From an uncultured beta proteobacterium (lineage in GTDB: Bacteria; Pseudomonadota; Gammaproteobacteria; Burkholderiales; Burkholderiaceae_B): a stretch of 60,811 nt of DNA. The translations under genes and the position numbers were made by a program. Below are positions 22,172 to 35,746 of the stretch, piece after piece. Numbering within the stretch: the first letter of the stretch is position 1; the number at the start of each line of letters is the position of its first letter. The DNA is taken from positions 1 to 60,811 of the forward strand of contig CAIZGG010000099.1 in NCBI GenBank assembly GCA_903932425.1, in the 5' to 3' direction. Below the pieces are notes generated by a model. That model worked only from the letters and a program-made list of their open reading frames with translations, was not told the DNA's origin and did not search any database.

Positions 22172-22371
22172 TTTGAATCCTTTAAGGTTGGTCGGGTCGC
22201 CGGTGGGTGAGATGTTGTCTAAAGAGGACTACCTCTGACAGCCCGCCACGTATCCTGAGTTCAGCCCAGCATTCTACAATGAATAGGTGCTTAAAGCAAA
22301 GCAGCAATGCTATCCTGACAGCCGTGTCTTTTAAAAAGACCTATTTAAAACAAGCCCTTGGAGCCTCCATC

Positions 22372-23127
22372 GTGTCACGCAAGCATGAAATCCCGACCAT
22401 ATCCGAGGCCGCAGGTGTTCGTTATCTACATTTCGGGACTGAATGGGTGCAGGGGGCTATGTGGGTGGATCAGCCTGCTGAGCTCGTGCTTGAGTACACC
22501 GCCCAATTAATGGCTTGGTTGTTGTTTCTGAATCCGTCCCGAGGGCAAGACCTTGGTTTGTTAGGGTTGGGAGCGGGCTCAGTCGCGCGGTTTTGCCTCA
22601 AGCACACTCAGCACCGTCTGCGCGTGGTCGAATGGAACCCCCTTGTGACGTCAGCGTGCGAGTTGTACTTTAAATTACCAAGGCCCGCCCGCCTGAAGAT
22701 TGACCACTGTGATGCCGCAGAGTGGGTCGCCGACCCCGAACAACAGGGCAGTTGTGCGGTGCTGATGGTGGATATTTATGATGGACAGGCTCGGGGGCCC
22801 GTGCGAGATTCATTAGAGTTTTATCAAAATTGCCGCGCAGCGCTCAGTGAGGTGGGTATGTTGACCGTCAATTTATTTGGCGCTCACGCGAGTTTTGAAC
22901 GCAATATTCGCAATCTGAGCCAGGCCTTCGATGGGCGACTGTTGACGCTTCCTCAGATTGATGCGGGCAACCAGATCGTGTTGGCGTTCAAGGGACCCAA
23001 GCTTGAGGTGTCAATTGAACGGTTATTATCACGCGCCGAGGATGTTGAGAAGCAATATGGGCTGCCGGCAAAAAAGTGGGCGCGCTCGATGCTGGGCCGT
23101 GCTGAAAATTCAATGTTGGTGATTTGA
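22372..23127 (+). CDS. Spermidine synthase-like Rossmann-fold protein
   Basis: A 251-residue protein of the spermidine synthase/SAM-dependent transferase fold. The nucleotide-binding loop is LGLLGLGAGSVARFCL, the acidic residue after strand 2 is in LRVVEWNPLV, and the acidic catalytic-type loop is AVLMVDIYDGQ. True spermidine synthases have GGGDGG and a DSSDP-type motif; both are altered here, so aminopropyl transfer is uncertain and a methyltransferase-like role is possible. I start at GTG 22372, with a ttggag site about 9 nt upstream and a plausible N-terminus (SRKHEIPTISEAAG). ATG 22279 in the same frame would add 31 residues. A 15-bp tandem repeat follows the stop. Confidence 0.75.
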   Translation: MSRKHEIPTISEAAGVRYLHFGTEWVQGAMWVDQPAELVLEYTAQLMAWLLFLNPSRGQDLGLLGLGAGSVARFCLKHTQHRLRVVEWNPLVTSACELYFKLPRPARLKIDHCDAAEWVADPEQQGSCAVLMVDIYDGQARGPVRDSLEFYQNCRAALSEVGMLTVNLFGAHASFERNIRNLSQAFDGRLLTLPQIDAGNQIVLAFKGPKLEVSIERLLSRAEDVEKQYGLPAKKWARSMLGRAENSMLVI

Positions 23128-23133
23128 GCAACG

Positions 23134-23193
23134 CAGCAGACAGCACGGCAGCAGACAGCACGGCAGCAGACAGCACCGCAGCAGACAGCCACG
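23134..23193 (+). repeat. Four tandem copies of a 15-bp repeat
   Basis: The unit CAGCAGACAGCACGG is present twice exactly (23134-23148 and 23149-23163). Two diverging copies follow, ending caccg and ccacg. It lies between the stop of the spermidine-synthase-like gene and the start of the ABC substrate-binding protein, 25 nt upstream of that start. Fifteen bases is a multiple of three but no start codon opens this frame. Likely a replication-slippage minisatellite with variable copy number. Confidence 0.85.
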
Positions 23194-23217: not shown

Positions 23218-24186
23218 ATGATATTTCGGGCTTACATTTCGCTGTTGCTCTGCGGGCTCCTGTGTCTGGTGGCGCCTAGCGCTTGGGCGCAAACCAAGTC
23301 GGTGTTTGTGTTGGGCACTGAGCGAGGCCCTGCGGCCGAGGCGATGCGAGAAGGCCTGCGCGACGCCTTGAAATCGGTTGGCTTTATTGAAGGCCGCAAC
23401 CTCAAGATGATTGTTGAGACGGTGGTTGACGACGAGCAAAAGCTCAGTCAGCAAGCACTGAACTTAGTTTTAGCGCGCCCGGATGTGTTGGTGGCCCTGT
23501 CGGCACCCGCCGCGCAGGCATTGATGCGACACACCAAGCAAATGCCGATTGTGTTTGCTGGTGTCACCGATCCCGTGCAAGCCGAGTTGGTGCCCAGTTG
23601 GTCCGCATCGGGCTCGAACGTCACCGGAGTTTCTGACCTGCTGACGATGGCCCGTAGGGCTCAGTTGGTTCGGCAGTTTGTTCCGCAGGCGAGGCGGGTC
23701 GGCGTGGTGTACAACCCAGCCGACGCAGCCTCCGTGCTTGTGATTCGAGAATTTCAAGAACAGCTGACAAAAGCCGGAATGCTGATGGTTGAGGTCGCCG
23801 CGTCACGCGCCTTAGACGTTGCTGCCGCCGCGCGAAGTTTGATTGGCAAGGTCGACGCAATGCACACCTTTTGGGATTCGCATACCCAAGCGGCGTACCC
23901 AGGCTTGGTGAAAGTGGCCAACGATTCAAAGATTGCGCTGCTGGCTGCAGACACTCTCAGCGTGCAAGCCGGAGCCTTGGCAGCCCTGGTGGTCACTGAG
24001 CGCGACGTGGGAGTGGCCGCAGGTCGTCAAGTCGTTCGCATTTTGCGTGGAGCCAAGCCGGGCGCGATTGCTCCAGAAACCATTAGCAGGCCTCAGATTC
24101 AAATCAACCTGGTCGCTGCAAAAAAGCAAGGCGTCAGCCTGTCTGAAGCCTTGCTCAAGAGCGCGACTGTCATTGTGAAAGAGTGA
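23218..24186 (+). CDS. ABC transporter substrate-binding protein, TrpX-like (PF04392 type)
   Basis: Periplasmic binding protein of 322 residues. The signal peptide is AYISLLLCGLLCLVAPSAWA, cleaved before QTKSVFVLG. The two-lobe fold characteristic of the TrpX/YtfQ-unrelated ABC_sub_bind family follows: GFIEGRNLKMIVETVVDD, PIVFAGVTDPVQAELV, ARRVGVVYNPADAAS and VTERDVGVAAGRQVVRIL. No permease or ATPase gene is next to it, although this family is usually encoded with both. It may serve a transporter encoded elsewhere or act as a sensor partner. The next gene, pdxJ, begins about 100 nt downstream. The ligand is unknown; aromatic amino acids are known for TrpX. Confidence 0.85.
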   Translation: MIFRAYISLLLCGLLCLVAPSAWAQTKSVFVLGTERGPAAEAMREGLRDALKSVGFIEGRNLKMIVETVVDDEQKLSQQALNLVLARPDVLVALSAPAAQALMRHTKQMPIVFAGVTDPVQAELVPSWSASGSNVTGVSDLLTMARRAQLVRQFVPQARRVGVVYNPADAASVLVIREFQEQLTKAGMLMVEVAASRALDVAAAARSLIGKVDAMHTFWDSHTQAAYPGLVKVANDSKIALLAADTLSVQAGALAALVVTERDVGVAAGRQVVRILRGAKPGAIAPETISRPQIQINLVAAKKQGVSLSEALLKSATVIVKE

Positions 24187-25519: not shown

Positions 25520-26614
25520 GTGAACGCTACTAAAAAAACAACCACAAAAACAACCACAAAAACAACGAAAACAACAACGCTCGAACGTGGTCCTTTGATG
25601 GTCGATGTCGCCGGCCACACACTCACCGCAAACGAAAAAAAGAGGCTGCAGCATCCTTTGGTGGGTGGGGTAATTTTGTTTGCCCGTAACTTTGAAAATC
25701 GCGCACAACTCGTCGCGTTGACGCGTAGCATCCATCGCTTACGTACCCCTCATTTATTGATCGCGGTTGACCACGAAGGCGGGCGCGTGCAGCGATTTCG
25801 TACTGACGGCTTTACCGTGCTGCCGTCGATGCGGTGCTTAGGTGAGCGCTGGATGCAAGACCCCTTGCAGGCGATGCGTATGGCAACTGAAGTTGGCTAT
25901 GTTTTAGGCGCCGAACTCCGAGCGTGTGACGTTGACCTGAGTTTCACGCCAGTCTTGGATCTTGATTATGGGGTGAGTTCAGTGATCGGCGATCGGTCTT
26001 TTCATCGCGATCCGCGGGTGGTCGCGATGCTGGCGCGCGCGTTGTCCCAAGGGCTGCAGCTAGCCGGGATGGCCGCTTGCGGTAAGCACTTTCCAGGTCA
26101 TGGCGCAGTCAAAGCGGATTCGCATCACGCGATCCCGCGCGACCCGCGTTCGCTCAAGCGTATTCTTCAAGAAGATGCTGCGCCCTATCAATGGCTGGGT
26201 GACCAGGTAATCGCGTCTGTCATGCCCGCGCATGTGATTTATTCAAAGGTTGATGCAAAACCCGCTGGCTTTTCATCTAAGTGGATTCAAGAGATTTTGC
26301 GCCGCAAGTTGCGCTATGACGGGGTGGTGTTTTCTGACGATCTCACGATGGAAGGCGCCGCCGTTGCAGGAGACATTCTGGCGCGCGCGCAGGCGGCTCT
26401 GCAGGCTGGTTGCGATATGGCGCTGGTTTGTAATCGCCCCGATTTAGCTGATGAATTACTGGTGCGCCTGTCACACCAGTCTGAGCCTGCCTCGGTGGCG
26501 CGTATTGCCCGTTTAATGCCTACGGTGCCCGCACCCGATTGGCAAGGGTTGCAGCAACAACCGGCCTATCAAAAGGCGCTTGAATCCGTACGTGAACTTC
26601 ATGAGCGAAGCTGA
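25520..26614 (+). CDS. nagZ: Beta-N-acetylhexosaminidase NagZ
   Basis: Cytoplasmic GH3 enzyme that removes GlcNAc from anhydromuropeptides in cell wall recycling. It is 364 residues. The core has [15 protein letters not shown], the catalytic His loop [18 protein letters not shown] and the nucleophile Asp in [13 protein letters not shown]. Unusual is the N-terminus: from GTG 25520 it encodes a Lys/Thr repeat ([16 protein letters not shown], residues 5-20) from an A/C-rich tandem repeat, before the family-like [10 protein letters not shown] at about residue 26. A gagag site is near GTG 25520. The true start might be an internal codon. The 3' end overlaps uvrC by 14 nt. Confidence 0.93.
25529..25578 (+). 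repeat. A/C-rich short tandem repeat in the nagZ 5' end
   Basis: About four imperfect units of a 9-12 nt word of the type AAAACAACCACA encode the Lys-Thr tract at the NagZ N-terminus. It is prone to slippage; changes by units of three keep the frame, others would shift it. Confidence 0.7.
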
Positions 26615-29171: not shown

Positions 29172-29185
29172 TTGATTTAGATCAA
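29172..29185 (+). promoter_or_regulatory. FNR/ANR box upstream of the truncated ccoI
   Basis: TTGATTTAGATCAA is a perfect match to the FNR consensus TTGAT-N4-ATCAA. It lies 59-72 nt upstream of the CcoI-like start, as expected for oxygen-controlled activation of cbb3 assembly genes. The matching regulator gene is at 38873-39598. Confidence 0.85.
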
Positions 29186-29243: not shown

Positions 29244-30314
29244 ATGCGTACACATTCCCTTTGCAGCACAGTTGCCAGTCAGGAGGTGGCGCGCCGCCGC
29301 CGGGGCTTGGTGCGTCTTGGGCTGGCTTGGCTTGCGATGATGCAAGTGATGATGTTCGCGCTGCCTGGGTATCTGCGGCACGAGGCCGGGGGTCAAGACA
29401 GTCTCGAGGTACTTGACTGGGCCATTTTCTTAATGAACTGGGCCAGTTTAGCGCTCACCATTCCGGTTATTTTGTATTCGGCCTGGCCGATCTGGCTTGG
29501 TTGTGTGCGTGCGTGGGCAACCCGCCGAGTCACCATGGATGTGCCCGTTGGGATCAGTATGCTCGCGGCGTTTATCCCAAGCGTGATTGCGACCTTCAGG
29601 GGTTCAGGCGAAGTTTATTTTGACTCGATCACGATGTTTGTCGCTTTTTTGCTTACTGCCCGTTATGTCGAGCAGCGCGCCAGCATGGTTGACCCTGACG
29701 CGCCTGCCCAAGCGCTCTTGGTACGTGCTGGAGTGTCCGTGCGCAGTGACGGGTCTTCGCAAACAAGTGCGATCCCTGTCAGCGAGCACTCCAAGCAGCA
29801 CCTCTCTGCGCGGGGTGGGGTGAAGCATTTCAGCGTGCCGTTAGTTAGGCAGGCCAACCGCGTGGCGAGCGTGTTTGTGATGATTCAAGTTACGGTGGCC
29901 GCAGTGATCGGCGTCGTGTGGTGGGTGATCGAACCCACACACGCCTGGTCAGTGTTGGTTTCGCTGCTTGTGATGAGTTGCCCCTGCGCCTTGTCTCTGG
30001 CCGCACCGGTATCGTTAGCCGCGCTTCAAGTGAATCTGGCACTTGGTGAACCTTTGCCCGCGACTGAGCGTGAGGCCTTGCTAGCTCTCACCGCCCGCAT
30101 TACCCGCCAAAATCTTTATGGTGCGCTGGCGTGGCATGTCTTGACAATGCCACTAGCTGCAATGGGTTGGGTGACCCCTTGGTTGGCTGCGCTGTCGATG
30201 CTGCTGTCGTCGGTGGCAGTGGTGCTCAATGCCTGGCGCCTGTACCGACCTCGGCGGGCAGGGCTAAGTCGGGCGGTGGGTGTCCTGACACAAAACGCAC
30301 ACCTTCGAGCCTAA
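29244..30314 (+). CDS. CcoI/FixI-like membrane protein: copper P-type ATPase without its catalytic domains
   Basis: A 356-residue, eight-helix protein whose membrane parts match CcoI, the P1B ATPase that supplies copper to cbb3 oxidase. Kept are helices 1-4 (including MDVPVGISMLAAFIP and VYFDSITMFVAFLLTARYVE), helix 6 with the metal motif MSCPCALSLAAP (Cys246, Cys248), and the last two helices (ITRQNLYGALAWHVLTMPLA, WLAALSMLLSSVAVVLNAWR). Missing are the N-terminal metal-binding domain, the TGE actuator motif and the whole phosphorylation/nucleotide domain (no DKTGT, no GDGxND). Full CcoI is about 700-850 residues. The frame is open throughout and the joins are clean, so serial in-frame deletion is more likely than random decay. 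ATP hydrolysis is impossible. It follows an FNR box and precedes ccoS by 9 nt. Confidence 0.85.
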   Translation: MRTHSLCSTVASQEVARRRRGLVRLGLAWLAMMQVMMFALPGYLRHEAGGQDSLEVLDWAIFLMNWASLALTIPVILYSAWPIWLGCVRAWATRRVTMDVPVGISMLAAFIPSVIATFRGSGEVYFDSITMFVAFLLTARYVEQRASMVDPDAPAQALLVRAGVSVRSDGSSQTSAIPVSEHSKQHLSARGGVKHFSVPLVRQANRVASVFVMIQVTVAAVIGVVWWVIEPTHAWSVLVSLLVMSCPCALSLAAPVSLAALQVNLALGEPLPATEREALLALTARITRQNLYGALAWHVLTMPLAAMGWVTPWLAALSMLLSSVAVVLNAWRLYRPRRAGLSRAVGVLTQNAHLRA

Positions 30315-30323
30315 GGCAGAACC

Positions 30324-30476
30324 ATGGAAATCCTGTATCTGCTTTTGCCCTTATCGCTGGCCATTGTTGCCTTGATCGGTGCCCTGTTGTGGTGGGCTGT
30401 TTTTTCAGGGCAGTACGACGATGCCGAGCAGGCCGGACTTTCTATTTTGCAAGACGACGATCACACGATTAATTGA
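30324..30476 (+). CDS. ccoS: Cbb3-type cytochrome oxidase assembly protein CcoS
   Basis: A 50-residue single-pass membrane protein needed for insertion of haem b and copper B into cbb3 oxidase. It reads MEILYLLLPLSLAIVALIGA, then LLWWAVFSGQYDDAE and ends DDDHTIN, the classic CcoS pattern of one helix followed by FxxGQyDDle. It begins 9 nt after the CcoI-like gene. Its stop codon overlaps the FNR box of the ccoN promoter. Confidence 0.92.
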   Translation: MEILYLLLPLSLAIVALIGALLWWAVFSGQYDDAEQAGLSILQDDDHTIN

Positions 30477-30486
30477 TACAGATCAA
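30473..30486 (+). promoter_or_regulatory. FNR/ANR box upstream of ccoNOQP
   Basis: TTGATACAGATCAA is a perfect FNR consensus. It overlaps the last codons of ccoS and is centred 72 nt before the ccoN start at ATG 30552. An activator at -41.5 would put the transcript start near 30521, giving a leader of about 30 nt. Confidence 0.88.
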
Positions 30487-30551
30487 AGCCGACATCTGCC
30501 GCTCTTGGCATGATGTCAGCATCACGATTCATGAGACACGAGGCGCTAATC

Positions 30552-32018
30552 ATGACAAGTACTGCCGCAGTCAAAACAGAAAATTTTAATTATGGTGTGG
30601 TCAGGCAATTTGCCGTGATGACGGTCGTATGGGGTGTAGTGGGGATGTTGGTTGGGGTGGTGTTAGCCGCACAACTGATGTGGCCACAATTGAACTTTGA
30701 TGTCCCGTGGCTCACCTACGGACGCTTGCGCCCGTTGCACACCAATGCGGTGATCTTTGCCTTTGGTGGTAGTGCACTTTTTGCGGCTTCGTATTACGTG
30801 GTGCAACGTACTTGCCAGGCGCGTTTGTTCTGCGCACCACTTGCGGCGTTTACGTTTTGGGGTTGGCAGCTTGTCATTGTTGCCGCGGCCATCACACTGC
30901 CTTTGGGCATCACCACTAGTAAAGAATACGCCGAACTCGAATGGCCGATCGACATCTTAATTACGCTGGTGTGGGTTGCCTACGCAGTGGTATTTTTTGG
31001 CACCATCGTCAAGCGCAAGGTCAAACATATTTATGTCGCCAACTGGTTTTTTGGTTCATACATTTTGACGATCGCGATTTTGCATATCGTGAACAACATT
31101 GAAATGCCCGTATCGCTCTGGAAGTCTTACTCTGCTTACGCGGGCGTACAAGATGCGATGGTGCAGTGGTGGTATGGCCATAACGCGGTGGGGTTCTTTT
31201 TGACCACCAGTTTTCTGGGCATGATGTATTACTTTGTGCCCAAGCAGGCCGAGCGCCCCATTTATTCCTATCGCCTGTCGATTGTGCACTTCTGGGCCTT
31301 GGCGTTCACCTACATGTGGGCCGGCCCTCACCATCTGCTCTATACCTCGTTGCCCGACTGGACCCAGTCCTTAGGGATGGTGTTTTCGTTGATTCTGTTA
31401 GCGCCTTCATGGGGCGGGATGATTAACGGGATCATGACCTTGTCTGGCGCTTGGTACAAGCTGCGTACCGATCCAATCCTGAAATTCATGGTGGTCTCAC
31501 TGTCGTTTTACGGCATGTCTACCTTTGAAGGATCCATGATGTCGATCCGTACGGTCAATGCGCTGTCGCATTACACCGATTGGACCATCGGACACGTGCA
31601 CTCAGGTGCGCTGGGCTGGGTCGCAATGATTACCTTTGGCATGCTGTATTACCTCATCCCCAGGCTCTGGGGGCGCGAAAAAATGTACAGCGTCAAACTG
31701 ATCGAGGTCCACTTCTGGATCGCGACAATCGGTGTGGTGTTGTATATCGCAGCCATGTGGATCGCCGGTGTGATGCAGGGTTTGATGTGGCGTGCGACCG
31801 AAGTCGATGGCTCGTTGACGTATAGCTTTGTTGAATCAGTTAAATCGACCGCGCCGTTTTACTTCATTCGGTTGTTGGGTGGGGTGCTTTATTTAAGCGG
31901 GATGCTGTTGATGGCCTATAACGTGTTCAAAACGGTCATTGGGCAAACCGCGGTGAATCCAGTCGTGCCTGGCGCGACTCCTTCAAATACTCAATCAGCC
32001 AGTTTGGCAACGGCCTGA
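30552..32018 (+). CDS. ccoN: Cbb3-type cytochrome c oxidase subunit I
   Basis: Catalytic subunit with low-spin haem b and the haem b3-CuB oxygen site of the high-affinity oxidase. It is 488 residues with about 12 helices. Haem and copper ligands are visible in [14 protein letters not shown] (haem b), the CuB and nearby His of [14 protein letters not shown] and [15 protein letters not shown], and haem ligands in [15 protein letters not shown] start at ATG 30552, with gagg about 9 nt upstream; in-frame ATGs at 30510 and 30531 fall too near the expected transcript start. First gene of ccoNOQP under an FNR box. Confidence 0.95.
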
Positions 32019-32028
32019 GGAGCGCATC

Positions 32029-32691
32029 ATGGCAAACGAAAAAACAAGTTTCTTCTCGCATGAAACGCTTGAAAAAAATATTGGTCTGATGATCATCTGC
32101 AGCATTCTGGTCGTGATGTTTGCTGGGTTAGTGCAGATTGTTCCGTTATTTTTTCAGCACTCAACCACCAAACCCACTGCTGGCGTCGAACCCTACGATG
32201 CGATACGGTTGATGGGCCGCGATTTATATATTCGTGAAGGCTGTGTGGGTTGCCATTCGCAGCAAATCAGAATGTTGCGTGCCGAAGTGCAACGCTATGG
32301 CCCGTACTCTGTTGCCGGCGAATCCGTCTTTGATCACCCCTTTTTGTGGGGGTCCAAGCGCACGGGCCCAGATTTAGCCCGCGTGGGCGAGCGGTACTCT
32401 GACGATTGGCATCGTATCCACCTGCGCAATCCCCGTGCGGTGGTGCCCGAGTCGAACATGCCTGGCTATCCCTGGCTGGCAGCAACCCCAGTTCAAAGTA
32501 ATGATATTGGCGACCGGATGCGTGCGTTGCGCATGTTAGGTGTGCCTTACACCGATGCTCAGATTAGTGCTGCCCCCGAGGCGCTGAAAGGCAAAACAGA
32601 AGAAGACGCCTTGATCGCCTATTTGCAAGGGCTAGGCACCGGGGCGCGCAAAGCCGCACAAGCGCAGTCGCTCAAAACTGGAGGTCAATGA
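32029..32691 (+). CDS. ccoO: Cbb3-type cytochrome c oxidase subunit II
   Basis: Membrane-anchored mono-haem c subunit passing electrons to CcoN. It is 220 residues: an N-terminal helix ([20 protein letters not shown]), then the haem c motif [17 protein letters not shown], the oxidase signature [17 protein letters not shown] and the axial Met region [11 protein letters not shown]. Length is standard. The start is 10 nt after ccoN, and its stop overlaps the ccoQ start. Confidence 0.96.
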
Positions 32692-32864
32692 TGCTTGCCT
32701 ATCTCAACGCGTTGTCAACAGTCTTGGCGATGCTGACGTTCTTTGCAATTGTCTGGTGGGCGTTTTCACACGGACGTCAGAAGGCGAACCAAGAAGCGGC
32801 CATGCTGCCTTTTGCCTTGCCCGATGAATCGCGCCCACATCAAACCGGAGGCACACAATCATGA
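32688..32864 (+). CDS. ccoQ: Cbb3-type cytochrome oxidase subunit CcoQ
   Basis: A 58-residue single-helix protein that stabilises the oxidase complex. It reads [20 protein letters not shown], then [20 protein letters not shown] and PFALPDES, the standard CcoQ pattern of a helix followed by a basic turn and FxxPDE. ATGA overlaps both ccoO upstream and ccoP downstream show tight translational coupling. Confidence 0.92.
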
Positions 32865-33805
32865 GCGACTTTATCAACGGCTTTTGGGGCTACTACGTTG
32901 CCTTCGTCGTGTTGGCGGGGATTGCCTGGTGCCTGTGGTTGATCTTTTCGCAGCGCAAGTGGCTTAAGCCACAGTCCGGTAAGGTTGAAGATACCGGTCA
33001 CGTGTGGGACGGTGACTTACGCGAGATGAATAATCCAGTGCCTCGCTGGTGGACCATGATGTACATCATGATGTGTGTATTTGGCTTGGGATATCTCGTG
33101 CTGTATCCGGGGTTGGGCGCTTTTCAAGGTCGTTTGGCGTACACCTCTGCACAAGAGGTAAAGCAAGACCAGGCTGAAGAAGAGGCGAGCGTCAAGCCAA
33201 TTTATGCGCGCTTCGCCAAAATGGATATCCCACAGATTGCAGCCGACCCTGAAGCGCATTTGATCGGCGAGCGGTTGTTCATGAACAATTGCGCGCAGTG
33301 CCATGGTTCAGACGCAAAAGGAAGCACGAGTTTTCCAAATCTGGTCGAGGGGGATTCGATTTATGGCCGTCAACCCGAAGTGCTAACGGCAACGATTACC
33401 AAAGGCCGCAATGGCGTGATGCCAGCGTTAGGTGCGGCAATTGATGCAGGCACCGCTGGGGATATTGCACAGTATGTGCGCTCACTGTCGGGCTTGGCCC
33501 ATGATCAAATTCGCATCGTGCGTGGCAAAGGTGAATATATGAATGCCTGCGCCGCGTGTCATGGCGCTGAGGGCAAAGGTAATAAGGCCTTGGGGGCACC
33601 GAACTTAACCGACGACGTCTGGTTGTACGGAAGCTCAGAGGCAACCATCGTCAACGGCATTTTGAACGGGCGTAATAATCGCATGCCTGCTCAAGAACAG
33701 ACGCTGACTCCCGAGCAGATTCGCATGGTGGCCGCTTGGGTGTGGGGCCTCTCAAAAGGGGTGGATGTGACCTCTGCGACAGTCGCTGGCGCCCCGGCAA
33801 AGTGA
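32861..33805 (+). CDS. ccoP: Cbb3-type cytochrome c oxidase subunit III
   Basis: Di-haem c subunit that accepts electrons from soluble cytochrome c. It is 314 residues with two N-terminal hydrophobic segments (YYVAFVVLAGIAWCLWLIFS and MMYIMMCVFGLGYLVLYPGL). These flank the CcoP signature HVWDGDLREMNNPVPRWW. Two cytochrome c domains follow, with CAQCHGSDAKGS and CAACHGAEGKGN and the axial Met regions NGVMPALG and NRMPAQEQ. All haem sites are intact. Last of the ccoNOQP unit; ccoG begins 9 nt after its stop. Confidence 0.96.
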   Translation: MSDFINGFWGYYVAFVVLAGIAWCLWLIFSQRKWLKPQSGKVEDTGHVWDGDLREMNNPVPRWWTMMYIMMCVFGLGYLVLYPGLGAFQGRLAYTSAQEVKQDQAEEEASVKPIYARFAKMDIPQIAADPEAHLIGERLFMNNCAQCHGSDAKGSTSFPNLVEGDSIYGRQPEVLTATITKGRNGVMPALGAAIDAGTAGDIAQYVRSLSGLAHDQIRIVRGKGEYMNACAACHGAEGKGNKALGAPNLTDDVWLYGSSEATIVNGILNGRNNRMPAQEQTLTPEQIRMVAAWVWGLSKGVDVTSATVAGAPAK

Positions 33806-33814
33806 GCGCCTTAA

Positions 33815-35482
33815 ATGTCGCCTGATTCACCCATGCTTGTCGCGGTGTCTGCTAATGCGAGTGCGAATGCAGATGCAGATGCAGATGCAAGTGCCTTAGG
33901 CGCTCGCTCTGCCGATCATGATTCTGCTTCTGCGTCTGCGTCTGCTTCGGCATCTGCTTCTGCTTCTGCTTCAGTTCCGGCTTGGCGTCCGTTGGGCGCT
34001 AAACCTGCAAGCGATCAGACTCATGTCGTTGAGCAAGCGATTAACGAGGTCAGACAAAAAATCTATATGCGCTCGGTCACAGGGCTGTTTGCCCGTTGGC
34101 GCTTAATTTTTGTTGGTCTGACGCAGTTAATTTTTTACACAATTCCTTGGTTGAACTGGAACGATCGCCAAGCAGTGTTGTTTGATTTGGGCGCGCGTAA
34201 GTTTTATATCTTTGGCATGGTGTTGTGGCCGCAAGACGTTATTTACTTGACACTTTTGTTGCTCATCTCAGCGTTGGGGTTGTTTTTATTTACAGCGGTT
34301 GCGGGCCGTCTTTTTTGTGGCTATGCCTGCCCTCAAACTGTCTATACCGAAATTTTCATGTGGATCGAGCGCCATACTGAAGGCGATCGGGTTGCCCGCA
34401 TTCGCTTGGATGAAGCGCCTTGGTCTGTGCGCAAGCTGCGGATCAAGGCTAGCAAGCATGCGCTTTGGCTGCTGGTTGCAGGGCTGACTGGCTTTACTTT
34501 TATTGGCTATTTTGCGCCGATCCGCGAGCTTGGTCAGGCATTGATCAGTTTTTCTTTTGGCCCTTGGCAGTGGTTTTGGTTTTTGTTTTATAGCTTTGCT
34601 ACGTGGGGCAACGCGGGCTTTTTACGCGAGCAAGTGTGCAAGTACATGTGCCCGTATGCGCGTTTTCAAAGCGTGATGGTGGATCCCGATACCCTTGTTG
34701 TGACCTACGATTCGGCGCGCGGCGAACCGCGCGGCGCACGGTCACGCAAGGTCGATCATCACGCGCAAGGCTTGGGGGATTGTGTCGATTGCAGTATCTG
34801 CGTGCAAGTGTGCCCAACCGGCATCGATATTCGCCAAGGTTTGCAATATATGTGTATTGGTTGTGGCGCGTGTGTAGACGCCTGCAATCAAGTCATGGAA
34901 AAAGTCGCCTACCCGCAAGGTTTGATTCGCTACACCTCCGAGCGCGGCATGCTAGAAAAATTGTCGGTCCAGCAAGTTCGCAGGCATTTGCTGCGACCAC
35001 GCGTATTGATTTACAGCGCCCTAATGCTCGTGTTGTTAGCCATTTTTGTGACCGCTTTGGCAACCCGCACCACTTTGCGGGTAGATGTGATTCGCGATCG
35101 TGGCATGTTAGGCCGTGAAGTTGCTGGCGGGATGATCGAAAACGTCTATCGCTTGCAGATGATGAATGCGTCAGAGCATAGCCTTGTTTTATCCGTAAGC
35201 GCCGAAGGTTTGCCCGGCTTAAGTGTCAAATTTGCTGATCCCTCTGTCACCGTGCCGAGAGTGAAGTCTGACGCGAAGACACAAGGCGCTCAGGATTTTG
35301 AGGTGCCACAGATTGAGATCGCGGCGGCCTCGAATCGAGTCCTTGCGGTTGTACTGCGAGCACCCCACGATGCGGCTAAACCAGGATCTCACCCGATTCA
35401 TTTTGTGACGACGTCAAGTGCGCCTGATGGGCATGTTTCACTGACAGTGCGCGAGGCGTCAAGTTTTATTGTTCCGCAATGA
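33815..35482 (+). CDS. ccoG: Cytochrome c oxidase accessory protein CcoG (RdxA/FixG)
   Basis: Membrane iron-sulfur protein proposed to reduce Cu(II) to Cu(I) for cbb3 assembly. It is 555 residues. The family core starts near MRSVTGLFARWRLIF and has CGYACPQTVYTEIFMWIER and two 4Fe-4S clusters (CVDCSICVQVCPTGIDIR and CIGCGACVDACNQVMEK). An Ig-like C-terminal periplasmic domain follows (NVYRLQMMNASEHSLVL). Odd is the N-terminus: about 55 residues of simple repeats, ANASANADADADASA (13-27) and an SA repeat (37-53), before the family-like EVRQKIYMRSV. The DNA there is hexamer repeats. It follows ccoP by 9 nt. Confidence 0.93.
   Translation: MSPDSPMLVAVSANASANADADADASALGARSADHDSASASASASASASASASVPAWRPLGAKPASDQTHVVEQAINEVRQKIYMRSVTGLFARWRLIFVGLTQLIFYTIPWLNWNDRQAVLFDLGARKFYIFGMVLWPQDVIYLTLLLLISALGLFLFTAVAGRLFCGYACPQTVYTEIFMWIERHTEGDRVARIRLDEAPWSVRKLRIKASKHALWLLVAGLTGFTFIGYFAPIRELGQALISFSFGPWQWFWFLFYSFATWGNAGFLREQVCKYMCPYARFQSVMVDPDTLVVTYDSARGEPRGARSRKVDHHAQGLGDCVDCSICVQVCPTGIDIRQGLQYMCIGCGACVDACNQVMEKVAYPQGLIRYTSERGMLEKLSVQQVRRHLLRPRVLIYSALMLVLLAIFVTALATRTTLRVDVIRDRGMLGREVAGGMIENVYRLQMMNASEHSLVLSVSAEGLPGLSVKFADPSVTVPRVKSDAKTQGAQDFEVPQIEIAAASNRVLAVVLRAPHDAAKPGSHPIHFVTTSSAPDGHVSLTVREASSFIVPQ
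33851..33973 (+). repeat. Hexamer-rich simple repeats coding the CcoG N-terminal tail
   Basis: Two tracts: 33851-33895 with GCAGAT-type hexamers (Ala-Asp) and 33923-33973 with TCTGCT/TCTGCG-type hexamers (Ser-Ala). Six-base units keep the frame, so copy-number change would alter tail length and not switch the gene off. Confidence 0.85.
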
Positions 35483-35518: not shown

Positions 35519-35746
35519 ATGAACATACAAGAAAAAATTAATCACGAGGCGACACTGCCTTGGTGGCGACAACGCTGGCCATGGCTGTTGATGGCAGGCC
35601 CGGCCTTAGCCATCGTGGGCTGCGCAATCACGATCGTACTGGCGTTTCATGGATTCTCAGATCAGGCGATCTTTGACGGTGGTGTCAAACGAGGCTTAGT
35701 CGTTGAAAAAGCCGCGCCACAGACACCTTCATCACAAACGCGTTGA
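35519..35746 (+). CDS. Short FixH-like membrane protein
   Basis: A 75-residue protein in the position of ccoH/fixH. It has LPWWRQRWPWLLMAGPALAI and one membrane helix (AGPALAIVGCAITIVLAFHG), followed by a short periplasmic tail FSDQAIFDGGVKRGLVVEKA. The helix and the tail resemble the FixH N-terminal half, but the family is usually 150-170 residues with an Ig-like periplasmic domain that is absent here. Short forms of this kind may be common in the lineage; I cannot check. It starts 36 nt after ccoG. Confidence 0.65.
   Translation: MNIQEKINHEATLPWWRQRWPWLLMAGPALAIVGCAITIVLAFHGFSDQAIFDGGVKRGLVVEKAAPQTPSSQTR

Follow-up and report, generated by a model that had tools for sequence, protein, structure and literature searches.

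A short CcoI that keeps the membrane core of a copper P-type ATPase, without its catalytic domains, in cbb3 oxidase loci of the Alcaligenaceae

Introduction

CcoI, also called FixI, is a CopA2-type P1B ATPase of cbb3 oxidase biogenesis, while CopA (structures 4bbj, 3rfu and 7r0g) is of the CopA1 type. A P-type fold is also found together with partner subunits in KdpFABC, where KdpB retains the catalytic domains. In a study on Caulobacter FixI, CcoI is presented as an ATP-driven pump that delivers copper to the cbb3 oxidase, and the copper sites of FixI are assigned to C398, C400, Y681 together with N682, M703 and S706 (PMC12617631).

The gene described here lies in a stretch of 60,811 nucleotides from an uncultured beta proteobacterium (contig CAIZGG010000099.1; hereafter the window). 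It has the same operon position as ccoI/fixI, ahead of ccoS and ccoN, and its product shares with CcoI the CPC motif, a Met and a Ser, the matched membrane pieces being mostly 35-56 percent identical. In contrast to CcoI/FixI, the protein has no N-terminal metal domain, A-domain or P/N-domains, and the Tyr-Asn pair is replaced by Trp-His or Phe-His. It differs from KdpFABC in having no catalytic domains at all. The short form is CcoI by descent and, by the features tested, it is not a P-type ATPase, so that the annotation "P-type ATPase" would imply a pump function that is impossible for it. In the open PMC literature that was searched, as far as its accessible text goes and with subscription papers mostly outside, no description was found of a CcoI, or of any other P-type ATPase, in which the membrane part alone is conserved.

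The reduced gene and its operon

The features of the locus are collected in Table 1. The frame of the short ccoI is open throughout its 356 codons, and a motif search of the 356 residues found no DKTGT, TGE, GDG or CxxC. When the protein was aligned with 38 full CcoI, the membrane helices were seen to be retained, while the N-terminal metal domain, the A-domain and the P/N-domains were missing: the place of the A-domain is visible as a gap, and the N-domain/GDGxND region is reduced to a short linker. Pfam recognised the terminal part of E1-E2_ATPase alone (profile positions 106-178 of 181), and the score with TIGR01511 was 69.7 bits, below the cut-off of 397. PF12156, the model of the CcoI N-terminal metal domain, had no match in the window genome and was found in 3 of 151 family genomes; it is a weak test, which misses 8 of the 11 family genomes having a full ccoI. 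The preliminary description of this DNA had proposed a membrane core with CPC at residues 246-248 and no catalytic motifs, placed between an FNR box and ccoS in a cbb3 locus, and both proposals were confirmed.

Table 1. Coordinates of the short ccoI and of the cbb3 locus in the window
Feature	Position	Strand	Basis
FNR-type box TTGATTTAGATCAA, upstream of short ccoI	29172..29185	.	sequence match
short ccoI (356 aa; CcoI eight-helix membrane core)	29244..30314	+	ORF, Pfam, TIGR01511, alignment, AlphaFold2 model
CPC codons (Cys246-Pro-Cys248)	29979..29987	+	invariant in 52/52 short forms
Trp297-His298 codons, replacing Tyr-Asn of full CcoI	30132..30137	+	alignments of short and full forms
ccoS	30324..30476	+	PF03597, 2.9e-16
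FNR-type box TTGATACAGATCAA, upstream of ccoN	30473..30486	.	sequence match
ccoN, catalytic subunit, presumed CuB His residues retained	30510..32018	+	model match, alignment
ccoO	32029..32691	+	conserved order
ccoQ	32688..32864	+	ORF, conserved order
ccoP	32861..33805	+	ORF, conserved order
ccoG, cupric reductase family	33815..35482	+	TIGR02745, 482 bits
ccoH-like small membrane protein	35519..35746	+	ORF; name from position

From the usual layout of cco operons, we take the three genes following ccoN to be ccoO, ccoQ and ccoP. The His residues of CcoN that presumably serve CuB are present in 51 of 51 loci. An FNR-type box was found within 300 nt upstream of the short ccoI in 45 of 52 loci, against an expectation of 0.04 per 300-nt stretch calculated from the overall density of such boxes, and within 500 nt downstream in 39 of 52.

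The AlphaFold2 model of the short CcoI, built on a 52-row alignment, has a pLDDT of 83.5 and a pTM of 0.78. Its predicted helices can be read as eight membrane spans broken at CPC, and eight membrane helices with CPC are found by model and alignment together. The Foldseek search against the PDB gave CopA (4bbj) as the top match; this match is weak, with a best TM-score of 0.47. The first seven matches are all copper P-type ATPases (4bbj, 8q74, 7r0g, 7si7, 7si6, 8q75 and 7si3), with modest TM-scores of 0.39-0.47, and one match reached an E of up to 0.001. With the sequence profile, ten different PDB sequences were matched at E up to 0.01, the best being 3j08, 7r0g, 3j09 and 3rfu. CopA is among the top matches of both searches.

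In the window protein, the linker standing in place of the A-domain (residues 161-181, positions 29724-29786) is longer than usual, residues 166-181 being a gap in 51 of the 52 alignment rows. It is long also in locus L003, from the same genus, and L004 and L005 carry a shorter insert.

Distribution of the short form and its association with ccoN

A first search for relatives covered 61 genomes, from which 30 short forms were aligned, two of them cut by contig ends. A scan of named genomes gave at least 554 relatives, the best 80 of which were retained. Among these 80 best matches, 51 loci (L032-L082) belong to Alcaligenaceae or to MAGs that match likewise, and in each of the 51 the short frame is intact, with CPC present and both DKTGT and a P-domain absent, as in the window protein; the letters TGE occur in two of them (L041 and L069). 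In the same 51 loci, ccoS and ccoN adjoin the short ccoI. The genera include Bordetella, Achromobacter, Taylorella, Oligella and Zwartia, with many cultured strains. An assembly deletion is excluded by the occurrence of the same reduced frame in all these 51 loci, drawn from the best 80 of at least 554 relatives and many of them from cultured organisms. As for the other 29 of the best 80 (from Cupriavidus, Thiobacillus and more), 28 are full CcoI with DKTGT, and the last, L098, is a fragment without CPC.

In the family, the full-span short form was found in 102 of 151 genomes, a set that overlaps the named loci, evidently through the same records (for example L034 and G005). A ccoN gene was present in all 102, over the model cut-off in 99 and partial or disrupted in three: in G150 the contig terminates inside ccoN, in G145 the gene is partial and in G154 it is split in two and contains a stop, each scoring below the cut-off. 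No short form without ccoN was found among the 102. Counted from the oxidase, ccoN scored over the cut-off in 113 of the 151 genomes, of which 99 have the short form, 11 have a full ccoI and three (G122, G158 and G192) are cut at contig ends. Hence 99 of the 113 sampled ccoN-bearing genomes of this family have the oxidase with the membrane core of the pump alone beside it. Short ccoI and ccoN lie on one contig in 97 of the 99, the exceptions G146 and G165 being fragmented assemblies. The full ccoI adjoins ccoN in 10 of its 11 genomes, and in G132 it is split over two contigs.

In addition to the 102, genome G144 has a short form in two pieces adjoining a disrupted ccoN. The ccoN of B. pertussis is reported as a pseudogene (PMC13038864), and our guess is that the G144 locus may resemble that case. 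A contig end truncates the short form in G029. In G130 (L127, 5004-7705) short ccoI and ccoS are oriented away from ccoN and still adjacent to it, an orientation unlike that of the 51 named loci among the best 80 of at least 554.

Outside the family, with up to five candidates scored per genome, 9 of 399 genomes of the order matched at E up to 1e-60, all of them in the Alcaligenaceae-type family, and the only match among 398 genomes of the phylum was the window itself. A protein search of plasmid records gave four partial matches, none covering 80 percent.

Origin and selection

In a tree of concatenated CcoN, CcoO, CcoP and CcoG (81 rows), the short label changes once, with an SH-aLRT of 99. 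The 52 short rows of this tree are the window, 49 of the 51 named loci and two fetched genomes; 12 of 93 rows, two of them short forms, were left out for having too few columns. The tree of the membrane core (90 rows) agrees, with one change and an SH-aLRT of 99, and with a long-branch warning for L115. Both trees were made by a quick method, without bootstrapping; in each, the short forms group in a single clade, with one origin. L115 is the locus of G014, which belongs to the genus of the window and has a full-length ccoI; the clade of short forms does not include its oxidase genes. This suggests that the oxidase cluster of G014 was replaced by transfer.

For the 40 closest pairs, most of them from within Achromobacter, the dN/dS of the short ccoI (NG86) ranges from 0.053 to 0.298, and the gene is under purifying selection. 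The divergence of the core relative to CcoN is broadly like that of full CcoI at equal CcoN identity: at 0.80-0.85 CcoN identity, the mean core identity is 0.55 for short and 0.56 for full forms. At 0.90-0.95, however, the short core is more diverged (0.70 vs. 0.86), which speaks against the explanation that we prefer below. The preliminary view that the gene reflects selected reduction and not decay is borne out by the intact frames in 51 of 51 loci (best 80 of at least 554), the single change in the trees and the dN/dS of 0.05-0.30; the check that it had called for, whether the short form is shared across species and has a low dN/dS, came out positive. The spread through the family, the single origin on the trees made and the Asn-to-His change described in the next section are invisible from the window alone.

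The copper site

C246, P247, C248, H298, M319 and S322 are each present in 52 of 52 short forms. At position 298, every short form has His where all 38 full CcoI have Asn; at position 297, the short forms have Trp (49) or Phe (3), and 37 of the 38 full ones have Tyr. By motif order, the changed pair would correspond to the Tyr and Asn named in FixI. In terms of the Site I/II residues, as these sites are named in PMC12617631, Met and Ser are kept, Tyr becomes Trp or Phe, and Asn becomes His. Because the Tyr of Site I is replaced, the copper site is altered and shows more than plain preservation. The conservation of the copper-site residues favours a copper-handling role, and from the residues alone we infer that the short core may still bind Cu(I).

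Copper ATPases and chaperones elsewhere in the genomes

A full-length match to the Cu-ATPase model, which also picks up related heavy-metal pumps, was found at E up to 1e-60 in 102 of 102 short-form genomes. Among the 12 short-form genomes examined closely, a CopA-type gene (with CPC and CxxC) was recognised in 10, in G175 only as a contig-cut piece; it was unconfirmed in G170, at a contig edge, and in G195, an assembly that is 84 percent complete. The window genome has its own CopA-type gene, a complete ATPase with HMA, A and P domains, separate from the short ccoI on contig C479. Three complete genomes (G078, G069 and G159) each have a single P-type frame with the DKTGT codon pattern, that of a CopA-type protein with CPC. 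Second matches in G078 and G069 fall in a 20-residue frame and in a frame without other P-type motifs. A split gene with its catalytic domains encoded elsewhere is thus not supported by the exact DKTGT pattern in these three genomes.

The preliminary description had also raised the presence of a second full CcoI in the genome. None was found in the 102 short-form genomes with a core profile (E up to 1e-30) or with PF12156; among 11 family genomes known to have a full ccoI, 9 match the core profile and 3 match PF12156. Its suggestion that the gene was replaced by another copper ATPase stands in part: a CopA-type gene is present in the window genome and in 10 of 12 genomes, but the core is still under selection.

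The PCuAC and SCO/SenC families were found in 15 of 15 short-form genomes tested. In the window genome and several relatives, SenC is a neighbour of the CopA-type gene; it lies within 5 kb of that gene in 12 of 40 short-form genomes, which are 7 of 8 initial genomes, picked after the linkage had shown, and 5 of 32 others. Among the controls, this linkage was seen in 2 of 11 genomes of the family that have no short form, and in 0 of 9 from the order. A SenC linked to CopA as a new CcoI is not a family rule, being seen in these 12 of 40 only. On contig C479 (L183, 48-6878) a FixJ-like regulator, a folD-like gene, an oligopeptidase-like gene, SCO/SenC and the CopA-type ATPase stand in a row; SenC and the ATPase were named from Pfam, and the first three names were read from the sequence. 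In G078 (L184, 3010-8853) a gene of the multicopper oxidase family, SCO/SenC and the CopA-type ATPase are close together.

G078 groups with Taylorella in the oxidase tree, and T. asinigenitalis (L072) carries the short form. According to PMC3250509, Taylorella has one terminal oxidase, of the cbb3 type. In this organism, an oxidase that seems critical for respiration therefore receives its copper without a full CcoI encoded in the operon.

Proposed role of the short CcoI

Since the membrane core and its copper-site residues are under strong selection, a separate function in copper handling is probable for the core. We consider it slightly better than an even bet that the short CcoI is a non-catalytic relay that binds Cu(I) and helps the assembly of CcoN, the ATP-driven export being carried out by a CopA-type ATPase. 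In this case, a pseudo-ATPase would have arisen when the cbb3 lineage of the Alcaligenaceae lost every cytoplasmic module in one ancestral step. Cu(I) might be held at the remodelled CPC/His/Met/Ser site in the membrane, beside CcoS, CcoG and CcoN, and might be passed to periplasmic chaperones or to CcoN, while a separate CopA-type ATPase would perform the ATP-driven export of Cu(I). The more general statement, that a P-type fold has become an intramembrane Cu(I) relay (or channel) that is not an ATPase and has a rebuilt CPC/His site, with the energy and delivery steps divided between two proteins, has in our judgement equal chances of being right or wrong. Such a natural separation of pumping from delivery makes the role of the CcoI core beyond ATP-driven transport testable.

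The relay is favoured by the linkage with ccoS and ccoN, the single clade on the trees made, the purifying selection, the invariant ligand residues, the retained CuB-type His residues of CcoN, and the SCO/SenC and PCuAC families in 15 of 15 genomes. In R. capsulatus, a fusion of CcoI with SenC is reported to be functional and to depend on the CPC pair of CcoI (PMC8475189); this supports a hand-over from the membrane site to SenC. On the other hand, added copper does not replace lost FixI in Caulobacter (PMC12617631), and a lost CcoI is not made good by copper addition in Rhodobacter (PMC5829832). For this reason, it is not obvious that CopA could supply the ATP-driven step. The unconfirmed CopA-type gene in 2 of 12 genomes, the linkage of SenC to CopA in only 12 of 40, and the replaced Site I Tyr also weigh against the relay.

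The ligand residues conserved along the membrane path, together with the retention of ccoG in the operon, would also suit a passive Cu(I) channel or uptake porter, in which its gradient alone would drive Cu(I) along the CPC/His/Met path with no need of ATP, for instance into the cell to supply CcoG and CopA. We regard this as unlikely. An outward flow would oppose the membrane potential, and a P-type core able to conduct when its cytoplasmic domains are missing is not known to us. Moreover, R. capsulatus CcoI is reported to have transported no copper when it was given an ATP analogue that cannot be hydrolysed (PMC8475189).

That the core is purely an assembly scaffold, holding CcoS, CcoG, CcoH and CcoN together after copper binding was lost, is quite improbable. 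The absence of the catalytic parts and the adjoining ccoS and ccoN in 51 of 51 loci (best 80 of at least 554) fit this reading, but CPC, M319 and S322 are kept in all 52 short forms, and position 298 has become His, another potential ligand, in all 52.

It is very doubtful that the core is half of a hetero-oligomeric pump, paired with a CopA-type ATPase that lends its catalytic domains. A full-length match to the Cu-ATPase model in 102 of 102 short-form genomes, and a single DKTGT protein in a P-type frame in G078, G069 and G159, would agree with such a pairing; against it, the loops at the former A and P/N domains are short and poorly conserved, and no precedent is known to us for a core that borrows the catalytic domains of CopA. 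Finally, a slowly decaying relic or pseudogene, as might be thought from the loss of all catalytic modules and as the preliminary description had also allowed, is hardly credible and is rejected, with 51 of 51 frames intact in many genera (best 80 of at least 554), a dN/dS of 0.05-0.30, a divergence relative to CcoN broadly as in the full CcoI core, and the core kept under selection.

Repeat arrays in the window

Three short arrays were noted in the window. In the 5' part of ccoG, a hexanucleotide array (33922-33972) encodes consecutive Ala-Ser pairs. The gene at 25520 begins with a Thr/Lys-rich segment, where a 12-base array lies (25534-25578). The third, a 15-base array at 23133-23189, is located between the frames 22207-23127 and 23218-24186.
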